Notes under the pieces: model-generated
Databases searched by the model: none
The model's input: the letters and a program-made list of their open reading frames with translations, nothing else
What the model was told of the DNA's origin: nothing
From: an uncultured Pseudomonadota bacterium
GTDB lineage: Bacteria; Myxococcota_A; UBA796; SXON01
Assembly: GCA_903921785.1 (NCBI GenBank)
Contig: CAIXRH010000297.1
Span: 1 to 46,197 of the forward strand
DNA length: 46,197 nt
Direction of reading: 5' to 3'
Part shown: positions 35,253 to 45,772 of the stretch, one piece after another
How positions within the stretch are numbered: the first letter of the stretch is position 1
Layout: each line of letters begins with the position of its first letter
Position numbers and translations under genes: made by a program

Positions 35253-36863
35253 ATGCTCCCCTCCCCTCCCCTCGCGTCCCTCACCGGCCCCCCCCTGGCC
35301 GCCGTCGCCCCCGTCACCCTGGTCGAAGCGCTCCACCGTCTGGCGGAGCGCCCCGGCCCCTGGCTGCACGTCGGTCCCGGCAACGCCCAGCGCGTCTACA
35401 CCGGCGCCGAGGTGCTCGACCTCGCCCGGAGGTGGCGCACGGCCCTCACCGAAGCCGGGGTTCGCCGCGGTGATCGGGTGGCCCTGCTGCTCCCCAATGA
35501 TGAGCGGTTCGTGGGCGCGTTCTTCGGCGCGCACCTCGCGGGCGCCGCTGCCGTCCCGCTCTCGTGGCCCGTCAGCCTGCTCGATGCGGGGCGGAAGATC
35601 GAGGCGCTCCGCCCGCTCTTCGGCGTAGCGGACGTGCGGGCGGTGGTCACCGACCCCGCCTTCGACAAGGCGATGCTCGGCGAGGTCGCCCAAGCGGCCG
35701 TCGTCACCGAGCCGGCGGGCGTGGCCACGGGCGCGGACGTCGCGCCCGATCCCGAGGAGACGGCCCTCCTCCAGTTCACGTCGGGGAGCACGTCGTTGCC
35801 CCGCGGCGCGGAGATCACCCACCGGGCGCTCTCCACCTGCGTGCGGTCGATGTGCCAGCAGAACGAGTTCACCGACGGCGACGTCGGCGTGAGCTGGCTG
35901 CCGCTGTTCCACGACATGGGGCTCGCCGGAGGCCTCCTCTGCCCGGTGGTGTTCGGCTTCCCCTTCCACCTGATGACCCCCGGAGAGTTCCTCCTCCACC
36001 CCGGCCGGTGGATCCAGCGCTTCGCCGACGTCCGCGGCACCTGCGCCGCCGCCCCCGACTTCGCGTGGCGCCTCGCGGCCCGGCGCGTGCTCAACTTCAA
36101 GGGCGACCTGAGCGCCTGGCGCATCGGCCTCGACGGCGCCGAGCCGGTGCACCGTAGCACGATGGACGCGTTCTTCGCCCGCTTCGGCCCGCATGGCCTC
36201 GCGGAGACCGTGCTCAAGCCCGCGTACGGCCTCGCGGAGAACACCCTGGCGGTGGCGATCTACGACCCGAGACGGCCGGCGCCCGACGTCACCACTTCGC
36301 TGCGGAGCGTGCCGAGCGTCGGCGGTCCACTCCCGGGCGTATCGGTCCGGGTGCTCCGCGACGGCGTCGTGGGCCCCGAAGGCCACGAAGGGCCGATCCA
36401 GGTGCGCAGCGGCTCGCTCATGCGGGGCTACTTCCGCAACGAAGCGGCCTCATCCGCCGCGCTCACCGACGGCTGGCTCAACACCGGCGACCTCGGGGTG
36501 GTCCAGGGCGGCCAGCTCTACGTGACCGGCCGCGCGAAGGAGATGCTCATCCAGAACGGGACGAAGTTCCACCCGTACGACCTGGAGCGGGTCGCCACCG
36601 ACTCGGTCGCCGCCGCGATGGCGGGCGCCGCCGCGTTCTCGACGCCCGGCGCCGACGGCGAGCGGCTGGTGATCGCGGTGGAGGTGCCCGCGGCCTTCTC
36701 CGGCGACGTGACCCGCACCGTCCGCGGCGCGATCATGGAGGACCTCGGCGTACGCGTGGACGTGGTGCTGGCGCTCGCCCCTGGCGAGCTCCCCCGCACC
36801 ACCAGCGGGAAGGTCCGCCGCGGCGACGCCGCCGCCCAGCTCGTCGGCCGCGTCGATGGCTGA
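35253..36863 (+). CDS. Fatty acyl-AMP ligase (FAAL-like)
   Basis: 536 residues. It is an adenylating enzyme of the ANL superfamily. The P-loop LQFTSGSTSLPRG (173-185), VSWLPLFHDMGLAGG (213-227), adenylate motif YGLAENT (325-331) and hinge TGDLGVV with downstream Lys are present. The SWLPLxHDMGL block and YGLAE point to FAALs, which make acyl-adenylates and pass them to a carrier protein, rather than acyl-CoA ligases. A stand-alone ACP two genes downstream fits this use. First gene of the operon; stop overlaps the next start by eight bases. Confidence 0.88.
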   Translation: MLPSPPLASLTGPPLAAVAPVTLVEALHRLAERPGPWLHVGPGNAQRVYTGAEVLDLARRWRTALTEAGVRRGDRVALLLPNDERFVGAFFGAHLAGAAAVPLSWPVSLLDAGRKIEALRPLFGVADVRAVVTDPAFDKAMLGEVAQAAVVTEPAGVATGADVAPDPEETALLQFTSGSTSLPRGAEITHRALSTCVRSMCQQNEFTDGDVGVSWLPLFHDMGLAGGLLCPVVFGFPFHLMTPGEFLLHPGRWIQRFADVRGTCAAAPDFAWRLAARRVLNFKGDLSAWRIGLDGAEPVHRSTMDAFFARFGPHGLAETVLKPAYGLAENTLAVAIYDPRRPAPDVTTSLRSVPSVGGPLPGVSVRVLRDGVVGPEGHEGPIQVRSGSLMRGYFRNEAASSAALTDGWLNTGDLGVVQGGQLYVTGRAKEMLIQNGTKFHPYDLERVATDSVAAAMAGAAAFSTPGADGERLVIAVEVPAAFSGDVTRTVRGAIMEDLGVRVDVVLALAPGELPRTTSGKVRRGDAAAQLVGRVDG

Positions 36864-37860
36864 CGACGTCCTCGTCCTCGGGGCGAATGGCTACCTCGGG
36901 CTGCACGTGGTGGACGCGCTCCGCGCCGAGGGCGTGGAGCCGCGCTGCGGTCGCCGGAAACGCTCCAACGTCCTCGGGCTCCTCAGCCGAAAGGCGAACC
37001 GGGTGCTCGCCGACCTCGACGATCCGGCCACCCTCCGCGAAGCGATGGCTGGCGTGCGCACCGTGGTCCACGTCGCGGGCCACTACCCGCGCACCTCGCT
37101 CGATCCCGCCGCCAGCCTCGCCCTCGGCCTCCGCCAGGCGACCACGCTCCGGGAAATCGCCGAAGAAGCCGGGGTCGCCCGGTTCGTCTACGTCTCGACC
37201 ACGGCCACCGTGGCGCCCCGCCCCGACGGAAAGCCCTCCACCGAGGCCGACGTCTTCCCCGCCGCCCCGGACTGGGGGCTCTACCACGCGCTGAAGTGGG
37301 AGATGGAGCGGGTCTTCTGCGGCTCCACCCGGATGGAGGTGCGCCTCGCGCTCCCCGCCGGCTGCATCGGCCCCGGCGACCTGCGCGTCGGCACCAGCGC
37401 GATGGTCGTGGCGCTCGTCCGGGGGATGGACCCGCCGCACGCCAACGGCGTGGTCCCCCTGGTCGATCCGCGCGACGTCGGCATCGCCATCGCCCGGATG
37501 GCGGTCCGCGAGGACGCGCCTTCCCGACTGATCCTCAGCGCCGAGTCCCTCCGACTGCACGAGGTCCTCGTCCGCGCCGCCGAGACCCTCGGCCTGCCTG
37601 CGCCTTCGCCGGCGATGTCCGACGCCGACTTCCTCGCCCTGGCACACCGCTCCGAACAGGAGTCGCTCCAGACCGGCAAACGCCCCGCCTTGAGCGTGGA
37701 GATCGCCGAGCTCACCGTGCACGGCGTGCCGCTCGACGGCACCCTCGCCACCCGCGCCCTCGGCCTCCACTACCGACCGTCCACCGAGAGCCTCACGGAC
37801 TTCGTCCGTTGGGCCACACCCCTGGGCTTCTTCGCCCACTCCCCGGAGTCACGACCATGA
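36856..37860 (+). CDS. NAD-dependent epimerase/dehydratase (extended SDR)
   Basis: 334 residues. The N-terminal nucleotide motif VLGANGYLGLHV is the G-x-x-G-x-x-G of extended SDRs. The catalytic pair YxxxK is YHALK and the preceding serine region is VSTTATV. The family includes 3-beta-hydroxysteroid dehydrogenase-like and dihydroflavonol-reductase-like enzymes, and OleD of the olefin pathway belongs to the same broad group. It probably reduces or oxidises a hydroxy/keto acyl intermediate (inference). Overlaps the ligase by eight bases and the ACP by four (ATGA). Confidence 0.85.
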   Translation: MADDVLVLGANGYLGLHVVDALRAEGVEPRCGRRKRSNVLGLLSRKANRVLADLDDPATLREAMAGVRTVVHVAGHYPRTSLDPAASLALGLRQATTLREIAEEAGVARFVYVSTTATVAPRPDGKPSTEADVFPAAPDWGLYHALKWEMERVFCGSTRMEVRLALPAGCIGPGDLRVGTSAMVVALVRGMDPPHANGVVPLVDPRDVGIAIARMAVREDAPSRLILSAESLRLHEVLVRAAETLGLPAPSPAMSDADFLALAHRSEQESLQTGKRPALSVEIAELTVHGVPLDGTLATRALGLHYRPSTESLTDFVRWATPLGFFAHSPESRP

Positions 37861-38105
37861 TCGACGCCGCCACCCACACTCGCATCTTCAAGATCCTGTC
37901 CGACCTCAGCGCGGTCCCGGCCGAGCAGATCAAGGTCGACGATCGCCTCCGCGAGGACCTGGGCCTGGACTCGGTCAGCTCCATGGAGCTCGTCTCCATG
38001 CTCTCCGAAGAGTTCAACCTCGACATCGAGCTCGAAGAGGCCGTCGCCACCACCACCGTCTCGGCGCTCCTCTCGCTGGCCGAGCGCCGGATCCCCAATG
38101 CCTGA
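37857..38105 (+). CDS. Acyl carrier protein
   Basis: 82 residues, acidic, with the phosphopantetheine site DLGLDSVSSMEL (Ser39). Four helices are typical of ACPs. It is not the fatty-acid-synthase acpP, since no fab genes are adjacent. The start overlaps the dehydrogenase stop (ATGA) and its stop lies inside the next start (eight-base overlap). It is most likely the carrier for the FAAL product. Confidence 0.92.
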   Translation: MIDAATHTRIFKILSDLSAVPAEQIKVDDRLREDLGLDSVSSMELVSMLSEEFNLDIELEEAVATTTVSALLSLAERRIPNA

Positions 38106-39564
38106 GCCCACCGTCACCGACGACGTCGCCGTCGCGATCGCCGACGGCGTGGAGCGCTGGGCCAACGACCGCGTGCAGCCGCTCGCGCTCGACCACGCCC
38201 ACAAGATGGACCCCGCGCTCATCGAAGAAATGGCGGAGATGGGCCTCTTCGGGCTGGTCCTCCCCGAAGCGTACGGCGGCTCGGGCCTCGGTCTGGCCGC
38301 GGCCGCCACGGTCATCGAGCGCCTCGCGCGCCGCGACCGCTCCGTGGCCACCACGCTGGGTCTGCACCTCGGCCTCGGCACCCGCGGACTCGTCCGCTGG
38401 GGCACCCCCGAGCAGCACGAGCGGCTCATCCCCCGCCTCGCCTCAGGGAAGGCCCTCGCCGCCTTCGCCACCACCGAACCCGACGCCGGCAGCGATCTCA
38501 CCGCGCTGCGCACCACGATCGAGGCGCACCCGGAAGGCATCTCCGTCCGCGGCACCAAGATCTACGTCACCAACGGCGGCCTCGCGACGATCTTCACGAT
38601 CTCCGGGCGTTCGCCAGGGCTCGGCGGGGCGCGCAAGGGCCAGAGCCTGATGCTCCTGGAGAAGGGGGACAAGGGCCTGGAGGTCGGCGCCGAAGAGGGC
38701 AAGCTCGGGCTCCGCGCTTCGTCCACCACCACGCTCAACCTGGACGACATGGTGGTCGGCGCGGACCGGATCCTCGGCGCGCCGGGCACGGGCGCGGACA
38801 TGCTCCGGCACATCCTCGCCTGGGGGCGCACGGTGATGGCCGCGGGCTGCGTCGGCACCGCCGTCGCCGCCTACACCGCCACCCGCCGCCACACGGCGGA
38901 GCGCGTACAGTTCGGCAAGTCCCTGGACAAGCTCGCCGTCGTGCGGGAGCAGCTCGCCGACATGGCAGCGCTGATCTACGCCGCCCGCGCGCTCGTCGAC
39001 CAGACGACCGCCGACGAGGAGAACCTCGAGGTCCCGTCGCTCTCCGCGAAGGTCTTCGCCTCCGAGTGCTCCGGGGAGGTCTGCGACCTCGCCATCCAGC
39101 TCCACGGCGGCGCCGGCTACATCGAGGAGACCGGGATTCCCCTGATGCTGCGTGACACGCGCATCACCCGGATCTTCGAGGGCGCCAACGACGTGCTCCG
39201 CATCCACCGCGGCCTGTTCGCGGTGGTGGCGGAGGCCCCGCCCGCGGCGGACGGGAGCGCTTCGGCGGCCTCCGTCGCCGCCCGGAAGGTGCGCGCCGAG
39301 GCCTTCCGCGCCACGCAGAACGCCAAGGACCGGCTGGGCATCCGCCTCGCCGGGGATCACCCGACGCTGCACCAGCTCGGTGCCCGCGCCATCCTCGCCG
39401 ACGCGGCGGAGGCGGCCGCCCGCCGCGCCGACCGCGAAGGCAACGAAACCAGCGCCGCCTTGGCGCTCCGGTGGGCCGAGATGGCCGCCTCTCGTATCGC
39501 CGCCATCGACGCCCGTGAACCCGCCAAGCTGCAGTCTGAGCGCTGCATGGAGTGGTCGCCATGA
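38098..39564 (+). CDS. Acyl-CoA dehydrogenase family flavoprotein
   Basis: 488 residues. It is an FAD-dependent dehydrogenase that introduces a 2,3-double bond into an acyl thioester. PEAYGGSGLG opens the fold, ATTEPDAGSDLTALRT contacts FAD, QFGKSL and HGGAGYIEETG are the C-terminal motifs, and the catalytic base position is Glu361 (IFEGANDVLRIHRG). About 110 extra C-terminal residues resemble the tail of VLCAD-like members and may shape a long-chain or ACP-bound substrate site. Given the neighbours, an acyl-ACP substrate is likely (inference). Confidence 0.9.
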   Translation: MPEPTVTDDVAVAIADGVERWANDRVQPLALDHAHKMDPALIEEMAEMGLFGLVLPEAYGGSGLGLAAAATVIERLARRDRSVATTLGLHLGLGTRGLVRWGTPEQHERLIPRLASGKALAAFATTEPDAGSDLTALRTTIEAHPEGISVRGTKIYVTNGGLATIFTISGRSPGLGGARKGQSLMLLEKGDKGLEVGAEEGKLGLRASSTTTLNLDDMVVGADRILGAPGTGADMLRHILAWGRTVMAAGCVGTAVAAYTATRRHTAERVQFGKSLDKLAVVREQLADMAALIYAARALVDQTTADEENLEVPSLSAKVFASECSGEVCDLAIQLHGGAGYIEETGIPLMLRDTRITRIFEGANDVLRIHRGLFAVVAEAPPAADGSASAASVAARKVRAEAFRATQNAKDRLGIRLAGDHPTLHQLGARAILADAAEAAARRADREGNETSAALALRWAEMAASRIAAIDAREPAKLQSERCMEWSP

Positions 39565-40853
39565 AGATCCTGTTCGTCTACCCGAAGTTCAAGCGCCACG
39601 CCGAGGCGAACCCCGAGCTGCTCACCTTCGTACCCATGAAGGAGTACCTGGGGAGCCCGTCGCTCGCGATCGCCGCGCTGGTCGCCTCCACCCCCGCGGG
39701 GGTGGAGATCGAGTACCGCGACGACCGCCTGGAGAACGCGGCCCGGTCTACGGACGCCGACCTCGTCGCGATCACCTTCTTCACCGCGGCCGCCAGCCGC
39801 GGGCTGGAGCTCTGCGACTACTTCCGGGCCCTCGGCAAGAAGGTCGTCGCGGGGGGGATCTTCCCCACGATGATGCCCGACGAGGTGCAGCCCCACGTCG
39901 ACGCGGTGGTCGTCGGCGAGGGGGAGCCGGTGTGGGAGCAGATCCTCACGGACGTGCAGGCAAACGCGCTCAAGCCCCGGTACACGCCGCCGCCCGCAGA
40001 CGTGAACACGCTCAAGCCGCCCAACCTCGACGTGTACTTCAAGAGCGAACGCGGGGACTTCTGCCCCGACGACTACCCGCTACAGGTCTCCCGCGGCTGC
40101 CCGCTGGTGTGCGAAGCCTGCGCGCTGCCGACGGTGATGGGCAAGAGCGCCCGCGCCCTGCCGATGGACTACATCCTCGCCGTCGCGGAGCAGCTCGTGA
40201 AGAGCGGGCGGCGCGCCTGCCTCACCGAGGACACCGGCTGGCTCCCGGGCACCGCGGGCTCCCGCCGGCTCATGGAGCTGATGGAGTACCTCGCCGCCAA
40301 CGAACACCCGCTGAAGATCTCCTACATCGGGATTTCGATGCCGATGATCCTCTCGGCGCCCGCCCGGGCCTTCGAGCTGGCCCGCAAGGCCGGCGTGGAG
40401 ATGTTCTACCTGGTCGGCGGCTTCGACCCGGTCACCACCAAGGCCTTCACGGGCAAGGACCCTCGCGCCTACCAGCGTGCGATGGACGCGATCAAGAAGT
40501 CCTGGGATCACGGAATCGAGCCGTACACCTCGTTCCTCCTCGGCAACGAGGACGACGACGAGGGCACGGTCGACCGCATGCTGGAGTACAGCCTGGCCGC
40601 CGGCATCAAGAAGGCCGAGTTCGCGGTTTTCACCCCGTACCCGGGCACGCCCGCGTGGCGCCGCCTCCTCGCCGAGGACCGCATCCTCACCAAGGAGTGG
40701 GGCCGGTACAACGACGCGAACGTGGTGTTCAAGCCCAAGCACATGTCGCCCGAGGCCCTGCACCAGGGCTACCTGCGTCTGTGGAAGGAATTCTACGCCG
40801 CGCGTCCGGAGCAGGGACAGCGTTCGGAGTACGAGCGCACGATCCAGTTCTGA
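39561..40853 (+). CDS. B12-binding radical SAM protein
   Basis: 430 residues; the ATG overlaps the previous stop by four bases (ATGA). An in-frame GTG nine bases upstream (39552) is less likely. Residues about 1-135 form a Rossmann-like B12-binding domain (LVAITFFTAAASRGLELCDYF, VVAGGIFPTMMPDE, VVVGEGEP), and the radical SAM motif is SRGCPLVCEAC (Cys180, Cys184, Cys187). Class B radical SAM enzymes methylate unactivated carbons or phosphorus; others rearrange or cyclise. Placed last in a lipid-loading operon, it probably acts on the carrier-bound chain. Confidence 0.9.
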   Translation: MKILFVYPKFKRHAEANPELLTFVPMKEYLGSPSLAIAALVASTPAGVEIEYRDDRLENAARSTDADLVAITFFTAAASRGLELCDYFRALGKKVVAGGIFPTMMPDEVQPHVDAVVVGEGEPVWEQILTDVQANALKPRYTPPPADVNTLKPPNLDVYFKSERGDFCPDDYPLQVSRGCPLVCEACALPTVMGKSARALPMDYILAVAEQLVKSGRRACLTEDTGWLPGTAGSRRLMELMEYLAANEHPLKISYIGISMPMILSAPARAFELARKAGVEMFYLVGGFDPVTTKAFTGKDPRAYQRAMDAIKKSWDHGIEPYTSFLLGNEDDDEGTVDRMLEYSLAAGIKKAEFAVFTPYPGTPAWRRLLAEDRILTKEWGRYNDANVVFKPKHMSPEALHQGYLRLWKEFYAARPEQGQRSEYERTIQF

Positions 40854-40951: not shown

Positions 40952-41443
40952 ATGCGACCGAAGGTCAAGCTCCCCGTCGTCTATGTGACCGACCCCCACG
41001 GCACGATCCTGAAGGAGTCCGGGGCGGCGAGCGCCTGCCTCGGCCCCTCGGAGGGTCTCTGCTGCCGGGAGGTCGTCGGTGCCGTCACGGAAGACAACCG
41101 CCCCGTCTGCACCGCGACGTGCATGTACGAAGAGCCGCGGGACGCGATGCGCGTGAAGGTGAAGGACAAACCCTTCCGGATGACCTGCGCCGAAGCCGGC
41201 GATCAACGGGTGGTGATCCTCGAGCCCCTGGTCGAGGCCGGCGGTGGCTACGTGTCGCCGCGCGAGCTCGAAGTGCTCGGGCTCATCGCCCAGGGTCTCA
41301 CCAACGCCCGCATCGCCCGCAGGTTGGACCTGTCGAAGTTCACGGTCCGCACCCACGTCGAGCACATCCTCGAGAAGCTGCACGTCCGCACGCGCACGGC
41401 GGCGGTGGCGCGCGCGATCCAGCTCGGAATCCTCGGCGGCTGA
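40952..41443 (+). CDS. LuxR-type HTH regulator with cysteine-rich PAS-like domain
   Basis: 163 residues. The C-terminal half (about 100-163) is a LuxR/FixJ helix-turn-helix: VSPRELEVLGLIAQGLTNARIARRL, then FTVRTHVEHILEKL. The N-terminal half is PAS-like (VVYVTDPHGTIL) and has six cysteines (29, 37, 38, 53, 57, 79). The C...C-x3-C pattern is like PAS domains that read G-x-x-C-x-E-V and P-C-x-x-x-C and may bind a cofactor or metal. There is no receiver domain with a phosphorylatable Asp. It lies 98 bases after the acyl operon and is a good candidate to control it. Confidence 0.85.
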   Translation: MRPKVKLPVVYVTDPHGTILKESGAASACLGPSEGLCCREVVGAVTEDNRPVCTATCMYEEPRDAMRVKVKDKPFRMTCAEAGDQRVVILEPLVEAGGGYVSPRELEVLGLIAQGLTNARIARRLDLSKFTVRTHVEHILEKLHVRTRTAAVARAIQLGILGG

Positions 41444-41563: not shown

Positions 41564-41862
41564 GTAACAAATATGCATGCGCAATGCAGTAACTATTCCC
41601 CTTCCCCCTCCGGGAGAAGGGGGCGCGCAGCGCCGGATGAGGGGGCTCACAGCGCTGGCGATACGGCGTAACAAGACATGTCTGTCATCGCGCAATTTCT
41701 CCCCTTCTCCCTCCGGGAGAAGGTGGCGCGCAGCGCCGGATGAGGGGACTCACAGCGCTGGCGATACGGCGTAACAAGACATGTCTGTCATCGCGCAATT
41801 TCTCCCCTTCTCCCTCCGGGAGAAGGTGGCGCGCAGCGCCGGATGAGGGGACTCACAGCGCC
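41564..41862. repeat. Tandem 103-bp repeat with internal REP-like hairpin
   Basis: Three copies are aligned by CTCCGGG at 41608, 41711 and 41814, exactly 103 bases apart. Copies two and three are almost identical; copy one has C/T changes, and a decayed tail of a further copy precedes it (41564-41602, starting CGTAACAA). The third stops after CACAGCGC. Each copy has CCTTCTCCC-TCC-GGGAGAAGG. The rest of the 430-base gap 41444-41873 holds no gene. The elements sit between convergent genes and might also terminate transcription. Confidence 0.85.
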
Positions 41863-41873
41863 CGAATTCCACG

Positions 41874-42902
41874 TCACCCCGAAGGCCAAGGCGAAGCGCC
41901 GATGATCCACATGTGGCTGTAGAGCACGCCCACGAACGCCCCGACCGCGATCAGGATCCGCACCACCCCGATCTCGCGGAGCGCCCGCCCCAGGGAGCCC
42001 TTCCCCGCGACGATCCCGGCGAACGGCCAGAGCGACGTCTGCGCGGCGTACTGCGCCCAGGCCTCCCCGTGCTCTGCCGCGAGGCGACGGTCGATGTGGT
42101 AGCTGCCGAGGATGCCGAGGAGGCCGACGCCGCCGAAGAGCAGGAGGCTCGCGACGTCGCCGTTGGGGAAGCAGTGGGCGAGCGCCCAGAAGGAGCTGCT
42201 CACGTTCACCGGGTGGCGGGTGATCCACTGGATGCCGCGCGGCGTGGGCGCCTTCGCGAGGAGGCCACCCTGCCCCGAGAGCGTGGGGCTGGGGGTGCTG
42301 TAGCCGGCCACCTGCGCGAGGAGCACGAAGGGCATCGTGCAGAACGGCACCCACCGCATCCACGGCGCGGGCGCCCAGAGGGGGACGAACGGCGCGCGCG
42401 ACCACGTCCACACCATCGCCGCGAAGGCCACGCCGATCGCCAGGGAATAGAGCCCCAGGAACGCGCCGAGGCCGAGACGGCGGACGCCGGGGCCGCGGAT
42501 CGAGTGGGCGCTCAGGCCGAGGTGCCCGGCCGCGAAGGCGAGGACCGCGACCGCGAGGGCGGCGAGGCCGCCCCGGGCGGGCGCGGAGTCGGGCCCGAGC
42601 GCCTGGAGCGCCGGGAGCAGCGCCTTAGCCTTCGCCTCCCCGACCGCCGCCATCACGTGGTGGGGGTAGCCCACGCGCACCTCCGCCTCGGGGTCGGTCA
42701 TCGCGCGGAGCAGGTAGGCTTCGTCGCGGGGGACGGTGCGGGTCGCGCCGGCGGTGGTGACCTCGACCTCGGCCAGGCCGGCGCCCAGCGGTGGCCCGAC
42801 CCCGGCGGCCGTACCTGCGTCGTGGCACGCGAGGCAGCCCTCGGTGCGCAGCTCGGCCACGGGATCCGCGAAGGCGAGGGAGAGGGAGGCGAGGAGCACC
42901 AT
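41874..42902 (-). CDS. Cytochrome c domain fused to NnrU-family membrane protein
   Basis: 342 residues. A short signal peptide (MVLLASLSLAFA) is followed by a cytochrome c domain with the haem motif CLACH (23-27) and a possible axial Met in PHHVMA (Met84). A transmembrane helix starts near residue 112. Residues about 112-340 match NnrU, with RHPVNVSSSFWALAHCFPNG and LLGILGSYHIDRRL and six or so helices. NnrU proteins occur with denitrification genes and are related to the haem-dependent carotenoid isomerase Z-ISO. Fusion to a c-type haem domain suggests a membrane redox enzyme fed with electrons through the periplasm (inference). Confidence 0.85.
   Translation of the reverse strand: MVLLASLSLAFADPVAELRTEGCLACHDAGTAAGVGPPLGAGLAEVEVTTAGATRTVPRDEAYLLRAMTDPEAEVRVGYPHHVMAAVGEAKAKALLPALQALGPDSAPARGGLAALAVAVLAFAAGHLGLSAHSIRGPGVRRLGLGAFLGLYSLAIGVAFAAMVWTWSRAPFVPLWAPAPWMRWVPFCTMPFVLLAQVAGYSTPSPTLSGQGGLLAKAPTPRGIQWITRHPVNVSSSFWALAHCFPNGDVASLLLFGGVGLLGILGSYHIDRRLAAEHGEAWAQYAAQTSLWPFAGIVAGKGSLGRALREIGVVRILIAVGAFVGVLYSHMWIIGASPWPSG

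Positions 42903-44425: not shown

Positions 44426-45752
<1,327 letters not shown>

Positions 45753-45772
<20 letters not shown>

Follow-up and report, generated by a model that had tools for sequence, protein, structure and literature searches.

A conserved operon predicted to tailor carrier-protein-bound fatty acyl chains with a radical SAM protein in uncultured Myxococcota

Several bacterial systems activate a fatty acid with a fatty acyl-AMP ligase (FAAL), load it on an acyl carrier protein (ACP) and modify it there. Desaturases, halogenases and acyl-ACP dehydrogenases are known partners in such modules, and a 2025 review of bacterial FAAL pathways makes no mention of radical S-adenosylmethionine (SAM) enzymes (PMC11837247). 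The subject of the present analysis is a stretch of 46,197 nucleotides, referred to as the window (contig CAIXRH010000297.1 of assembly GCA_903921785.1), within a 7.5 Mb metagenome-assembled genome (MAG), labelled G000, of an uncultured bacterium of the GTDB lineage Myxococcota_A. At positions 35253-40853 of the forward strand it carries five overlapping genes for a FAAL, an extended short-chain dehydrogenase/reductase (SDR), an ACP, an acyl-CoA dehydrogenase-like flavoprotein (ACAD) and a radical SAM protein with a B12-binding-like N-terminal domain (RSAM). On balance, this operon appears to encode a dedicated pathway for the tailoring of ACP-bound fatty acyl chains, probably run under oxygen limitation.

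In the tambjamine YP1 system, with the FAAL-ACP protein TamA, the dehydrogenase TamT and the thioester reductase/transaminase TamH, a fatty acid is activated, loaded on the ACP and then, as predicted, desaturated by an FAD enzyme and released reductively, with no ketosynthase at work on the chain (PMC5939613). It differs from the window in the lack of a radical SAM enzyme, in the fusion of FAAL with ACP and of reductase with transaminase, and in a product that is part of a pyrrole antibiotic. The mycobactin arm (MbtM FAAL, MbtL ACP and MbtN acyl-ACP dehydrogenase) and the FAAL/ACP/ACAD set of the isonitrile lipopeptides resemble the window in that a stand-alone FAAL, an ACP and an ACAD act jointly on a fatty acyl chain. 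In these systems, unlike in the window, the chain goes to a product made by a nonribosomal peptide synthetase (NRPS), and neither a radical SAM enzyme nor an SDR is involved. The sphingolipid operon aasR-cerR-acpR-spt of Escherichia coli BL21 and Caulobacter (PMC9386255, PMC11324152) shares with the window a FAAL-type acyl-ACP synthetase, an extended SDR and a dedicated ACP, and the only ACP that AasR loads for serine palmitoyltransferase (SPT) is its cognate AcpR (PMC9386255). In E. coli BL21 the order is FAAL-SDR-ACP-spt, the first three genes being arranged as in the window. The differences are the spt gene, found here only at the loci L093, L095 and L100, the distant relationship of the SDRs, and the ACAD and RSAM genes that the window adds.

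The combination of FAAL, SDR, ACP, ACAD and radical SAM enzyme was not found in full-text literature searches. The original prediction, made by a model from the sequence alone, had not recognised the set as a described pathway. For the first three genes alone, E. coli BL21 has the matching arrangement. It had also put forward the lack of a ketosynthase as a special feature. This lack is ordinary, because the tambjamine, mycobactin, isonitrile lipopeptide and sphingolipid systems also load a chain and then tailor it. The load-then-tailor logic without an own ketosynthase is already known, and the new part is the radical SAM pair formed by RSAM and a second protein, rSAM2, that is treated below.

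Gene order, active sites and conservation of the operon

The five genes overlap by 8, 4, 8 and 4 bases, and their coordinates were exact on re-check. The FAAL gene (35253..36863, + strand, 536 aa) is followed on the same strand by the genes for the SDR (36856..37860, 334 aa, 8 bp overlap), the ACP (37857..38105, 82 aa, 4 bp overlap with the sequence ATGA), the ACAD (38098..39564, 488 aa, 8 bp overlap) and RSAM (39561..40853, 430 aa, 4 bp overlap). The Pfam and NCBIfam comparisons agree with the families assigned in the original prediction. The ligase gave an AMP-binding match of 181.8 bits (Pfam). FAAL models fitted it best (PRK07768/PRK09192 about 315 bits and FadD32/MbtM-type above 215 bits, versus 157 bits for the best acyl-CoA ligase model), yet the curated cut-offs of the individual models were not reached. 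Its relatives in the PDB are FAALs, and it is 32% identical to the aasR-type ligase of E. coli BL21 across 497 aa. By these sequence comparisons the ligase belongs with the FAALs, with predicted acyl transfer to a carrier protein. The SDR matched Epimerase with 61 bits and the HpnA model with 148 bits (cut-off 368, not reached). As an orthologue of CerR it was rejected, since the E. coli protein is 31% identical over 131 aa (46.6 bits) and HpnA scores better. The ACP has a PP-binding match of 49 bits (Pfam). The ACAD contains three ACAD Pfam domains, reaches 69.5 bits on the MbtN model and has very-long-chain acyl-CoA dehydrogenases as its nearest solved structures.

The key residues named in the original prediction are intact and were invariant wherever they were compared. 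The DS motif of the ACP with the phosphopantetheine serine (Ser39, codon 37971-37973) is found in 40 of 40 homologues, the catalytic glutamate of the ACAD (Glu361, codon 39178-39180) in 47 of 47, and the CxxxCxxC cluster of RSAM (Cys180/184/187, codons 40098-40100, 40110-40112 and 40119-40121, + strand) in 52 of 52. The same is true for the catalytic pair of the SDR, Tyr143/Lys147 (35/35). FAAL, ACP and ACAD thus share an operon, and their active sites are intact. A search for sigma-70 promoters and terminators gave none above chance.

The search for near relatives covered 58 genomes (G000 and 57 relatives). A RSAM protein at least 60% identical was present in 15 of these, one being a fragment, and all five genes were found in the same order in 10 intact loci besides the window. 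In species genomes, scanned with two RSAM octapeptides only, 58 loci were detected, nearly all of them from MAGs titled Myxococcota or Deltaproteobacteria; the operon may also occur beyond Myxococcota. The order FAAL-SDR-ACP-ACAD-RSAM is kept in about 30 of these 58 loci, and a divergent group (approximately 48-52% identity) has the order FAAL-(SDR)-ACP-RSAM-ACAD. The co-occurrence of the five families in this order, proposed earlier as a check, was thus found among near relatives as well as in the wider set. Searches of plasmids gave distant relatives only. The carriers are nearly all MAGs, some of them fragmented, the open reading frames at the loci were called by a simple codon-usage script, and the evidence is comparative throughout. 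For pairwise distances, the correlation between RSAM and a partner protein ranges from r = 0.81 (ACP) to 0.92 (SDR), with 0.89-0.92 for ACAD, FAAL and SDR. Because the gene set and its order recur across relatives and the partner distances correlate, the five genes are judged from sequence to be a real operon and not a chance arrangement.

When the neighbouring open reading frames were clustered, only the five core genes, a LuxR-type gene and the rSAM2 gene recurred frequently and at roughly constant places. The LuxR-type (GerE) regulator (40952..41443, + strand, 163 aa; GerE 63 bits) begins 98 bp past the operon, was missed in the original prediction, and is next to the operon at roughly a dozen loci. 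Its N-terminal sensor region is cysteine-rich; four cysteine columns in the N-terminal half are kept in nearly all of 16 aligned homologues and slightly shifted in one. Judged by this cysteine set, the regulator probably senses redox state, O2 or nitric oxide. The recurrence indicates that the functional unit is wider than five genes and includes the LuxR-type regulator and rSAM2, the latter not being visible from the window.

Some loci carry further genes. The operon of the closest relative (L052; L023:5197-6848) has two more radical SAM genes, the first of which overlaps the LuxR gene, and L065 (L032:2077-3819) has a second FAAL-like ligase directly 3' of RSAM. A gene similar to tryptophanase/tyrosine phenol-lyase lies near the operon or rSAM2 at L089 (beside RSAM), L058 and L147. 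One divergent operon (L103, DYIT01000192.1) comes from a record bearing the title Candidatus Kuenenia stuttgartiensis, possibly a mislabelled bin; hydrazine synthase was not matched in this record, nor did the control of that search give a match.

The two radical SAM proteins

RSAM has a B12-binding match of 44.6 bits, which is above the Pfam cut-off, together with Radical_SAM and DUF4070 domains. Its predicted structure (predicted local distance difference test, pLDDT, 94.4) matched the fold of AprD4 best (template modelling, TM, score 0.76), followed by MgmA, TsrM, MiaB and CysS. AprD4 and the B12-type C-methylases MgmA, TsrM and CysS have the fold and the CxxxCxxC cluster in common with RSAM and are at most 17% identical to it. 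CysS acts on a pantetheinylated substrate and is of myxobacterial origin (Corallococcus). The DxHxxG cobalamin motif is absent from RSAM, with an invariant D54 and R56 at that place. On NCBIfam models the scores were 67 bits for TIGR04013 (cut-off 251), 52 for BchE, 30 for MgmA and 28 for AprD4. No NCBIfam cut-off is reached by the RSAM of the window, which by score lies far from every characterised family, methylases included. TIGR04013, BchE, ladderane, MgmA and AprD4 families are also the commonest matches among the 52 RSAM members. The radical SAM protein of the ladderane (anammox) cluster, TIGR04072, was rejected as an identity for RSAM, and with it a ladderane pathway, the score being 34.6 bits versus a cut-off of 360.

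The original prediction had RSAM methylate or rearrange its substrate. The cysteine cluster and the B12-binding domain are in line with this, and the absent DxHxxG motif and the best fold match make it less certain; AprD4 is a radical dehydratase that is not known to use B12 and is paired with AprD3 on an aminoglycoside. As a guess, putative C-methylation is ranked first, since methylation is the reaction of most cobalamin-type members whose structures are solved, and radical dehydration or rearrangement second.

The second protein, rSAM2, has approximately 405-430 aa and a CxxxCxxC cluster. Its gene is directly 3' of RSAM in seven loci, L054, L055, L056, L066, L069, L078 and L079 (the first six also labelled L025, L026, L027, L033, L034 and L035), and in the genome of the window it is found on another contig, C119. 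It was present in 11 of 15 operon genomes versus 0 of 12 genomes without the operon. Among 379 Myxococcota genomes RSAM was found in 31, rSAM2 in 22 and both in 16 (hypergeometric 2.8e-15, with kinship ignored). Six genomes hold rSAM2 without RSAM, and rSAM2 may therefore also act elsewhere. Profile comparison gave Tes/GDGT-MAS as the nearest structural relative of rSAM2 (54 bits). In the predicted structure (pLDDT 91.8) Tes is likewise the top match and covers the whole chain (TM 0.59 over 442 columns), while most others match the core only. It is shorter than Tes and lacks the Tes N-terminal region, and as a Tes orthologue it was rejected, with 61-62 bits on the Tes model versus a cut-off of 450. 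A true Tes or membrane-spanning-lipid synthase was also rejected as the specific partner of the operon; fuller homologues of Tes are present in 15 of the 31 genomes with the operon and also in 9 of 43 genomes with neither RSAM nor rSAM2, a weak link. Such Tes homologues (approximately 130-365 bits, cut-off 450) are common in Myxococcota, for example at G000:C75:11477-12814, and are candidate membrane-spanning-lipid synthases.

Branch-specific genes and a likely nitrogen-oxide setting

The operon of the window contains no condensing or release gene, as originally stated, but some relatives have a FabF-like or SPT-like gene, and the statement does not extend to them. An SPT-like alpha-oxoamine synthase gene overlaps that of the ACAD by 4 bases in L093 and L100 and lies 44 bases 3' of it in L095, where the protein reaches 400 bits on the serine palmitoyltransferase model (cut-off 640). 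In L097-L099 a FabF-like ketosynthase gene is directly 5' of the FAAL gene, and in other loci CrtI-like or ThiO-like flavoproteins are encoded downstream. No thioesterase recurs beside the operon across the loci, and no NRPS, polyketide synthase or pyrrole-joining gene is found in the operon or recurs beside it. The differences in SPT-like, FabF-like and CrtI-/ThiO-like genes between branches suggest a fixed core with a variable, branch-specific exit; in the branch of the window, reduction by the SDR is a possibility. A dedicated SPT in the genome of the window was rejected, since its alpha-oxoamine synthases are found in relatives with or without the operon. Elsewhere in this genome (L130, G000:C50, 560-8746) a FAAL gene is followed by a polyketide synthase of approximately 2000 aa ending in an alpha-oxoamine synthase domain, and a frame similar to this long synthase is present in most relatives searched.

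Genes for NirK, NirV-like, SCO1, NorBC, Crp/Fnr, Rrf2, hemerythrin, Ric and NnrS-like proteins were repeatedly found near the operon or rSAM2; the names of neighbours were read from sequence, except a few tested by search. At least one nitrogen-oxide or redox marker was present at 19 of 62 operon loci versus 0 of 20 control windows, a count that is suggestive only, because the marker set was chosen after the neighbourhoods had been viewed. With kinship and genome size ignored, NorB was found in 12 of 31 operon genomes versus 50 of 348 others (p = 0.0015) and in 11 of 22 rSAM2 genomes (p = 1.6e-4), and NirK in 13 of 31 versus 73 of 348 (p = 0.013). In the complete genome G356 the operon, rSAM2, NirK and NorB are inside approximately 30 kb. 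A FNR-type box 5' of the operon is perfect in L081 and 9/10 in L101. An anaerobic role fits these enzymes, because radical SAM enzymes are oxygen-sensitive.

In the window a NnrU protein (PF07298, 128 bits) is encoded at 41874-42902 on the - strand, 430 bp beyond the LuxR gene and opposite to it, and its N-terminal part contains a haem-binding CxxCH motif, as in a fusion with a cytochrome c. A 103-nt unit that includes an inverted repeat occurs three times in tandem at 41597-41905, between the NnrU gene and the LuxR gene; the second and third copies are 97% and 68% identical to the first. Further downstream are a bacterial serpin (PF00079, 43073-44407, + strand, 258 bits) and, adjoining it, a sigma-54 activator (44426-45772).

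Proposed pathway and alternatives

In the proposed pathway the FAAL would adenylate a free medium- or long-chain fatty acid and load it on the ACP, and the ACAD would desaturate the acyl-ACP at the position adjoining the thioester or close to it. RSAM would then act by radical chemistry on the ACP-bound chain and alter a carbon that is unactivated or allylic, most likely by C-methylation and otherwise by dehydration or rearrangement, and the SDR would adjust an oxygen function or reduce the thioester. Exit from the ACP would be branch-specific, by an alpha-oxoamine synthase in one divergent group and by FabF-type extension in another, and rSAM2 may act on the same product or on the product's lipid. 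Loading and on-carrier modification by the flavoprotein and the radical enzyme, as originally proposed, fit the conservation, overlaps and catalytic residues; the restriction to five genes does not stand.

Several points weigh against this pathway. The substrate could be other than a fatty acid, and cobalamin binding by RSAM is uncertain, given the missing DxHxxG motif and AprD4 as best fold match of the model. The co-occurrence statistics are confounded by kinship and genome size, and rSAM2 is missing from some operon genomes (G028, G033, G036). With respect to respiration, the local markers were picked with the neighbourhoods in view, the operon of the window itself is not preceded by a FNR box, and NirK was not matched in 18 of 31 operon genomes, including that of the window, which has NorB. 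The link with denitrification is not obligate.

Among other explanations, RSAM may be an AprD4-like radical dehydratase or oxidase instead of a cobalamin methylase and, with the SDR, deoxygenate or isomerise a hydroxyacyl-ACP. The fold match, the lack of DxHxxG and the SDR partner, which parallels AprD4/AprD3, speak for this, while sequence scores are higher elsewhere (TIGR04013 67 and BchE 52 versus AprD4 28 bits), the B12-binding match exceeds its Pfam cut-off and the SDR is missing from several divergent operons; we regard it as unlikely, though it keeps some weight. Rather less likely is a sphingolipid-type variant in which FAAL, ACP and SDR are the counterparts of AasR, AcpR and CerR, the C2=C3 bond made by the ACAD becomes the sphingoid C4=C5 bond after SPT, and RSAM alters the chain. 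The matching arrangement of these three kinds of gene in E. coli BL21, the loading of AcpR alone by AasR for SPT (PMC9386255) and the SPT-like gene inside the operon at L093, L095 and L100 agree with it. The weak similarity of the SDR to CerR (46.6 bits, with 148 bits on HpnA) does not, nor does the branch of the window, which has no SPT near the operon and where alpha-oxoamine synthases are shared with operon-less relatives.

Remodelling of membrane lipids is similarly improbable. Here the operon would ready an ACP-bound chain, and the Tes-like rSAM2 would join or crosslink tails to a membrane-spanning or rigid lipid in denitrifying cells. The proximity of rSAM2 to GDGT-MAS/Tes by profile and fold and its strong co-occurrence with RSAM point in this direction; its score far under the Tes cut-off, the absent N-terminal region and the separate, fuller Tes homologues in many such genomes, with or without the operon, point away from it. 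An ordinary cassette for beta-oxidation or fatty-acid salvage, caught by denitrification islands and without a special product, is very improbable. Fatty-acid degradation commonly involves enzymes of the ACAD and ligase families, but here a FAAL-type ligase is accompanied by an ACP of its own, neither a hydratase nor a thiolase recurs, the radical SAM residues are invariant and the gene order is conserved.

The tailoring pathway proposed for the operon may have a wider meaning. It is possible, though doubtful at present, that uncultured Myxococcota possess an ACP platform for radical, possibly cobalamin-dependent, acyl remodelling which, with a Tes-like partner, yields a specialised lipid during anaerobic nitrogen-oxide respiration, a type of lipid pathway with no described member. 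If RSAM acts on acyl-ACP, it would provide an O2-free route to functionalise unactivated lipid carbons. The Tes-like enzyme and the links to denitrification together predict a new lipid that would be made anaerobically by largely uncultured Myxococcota.

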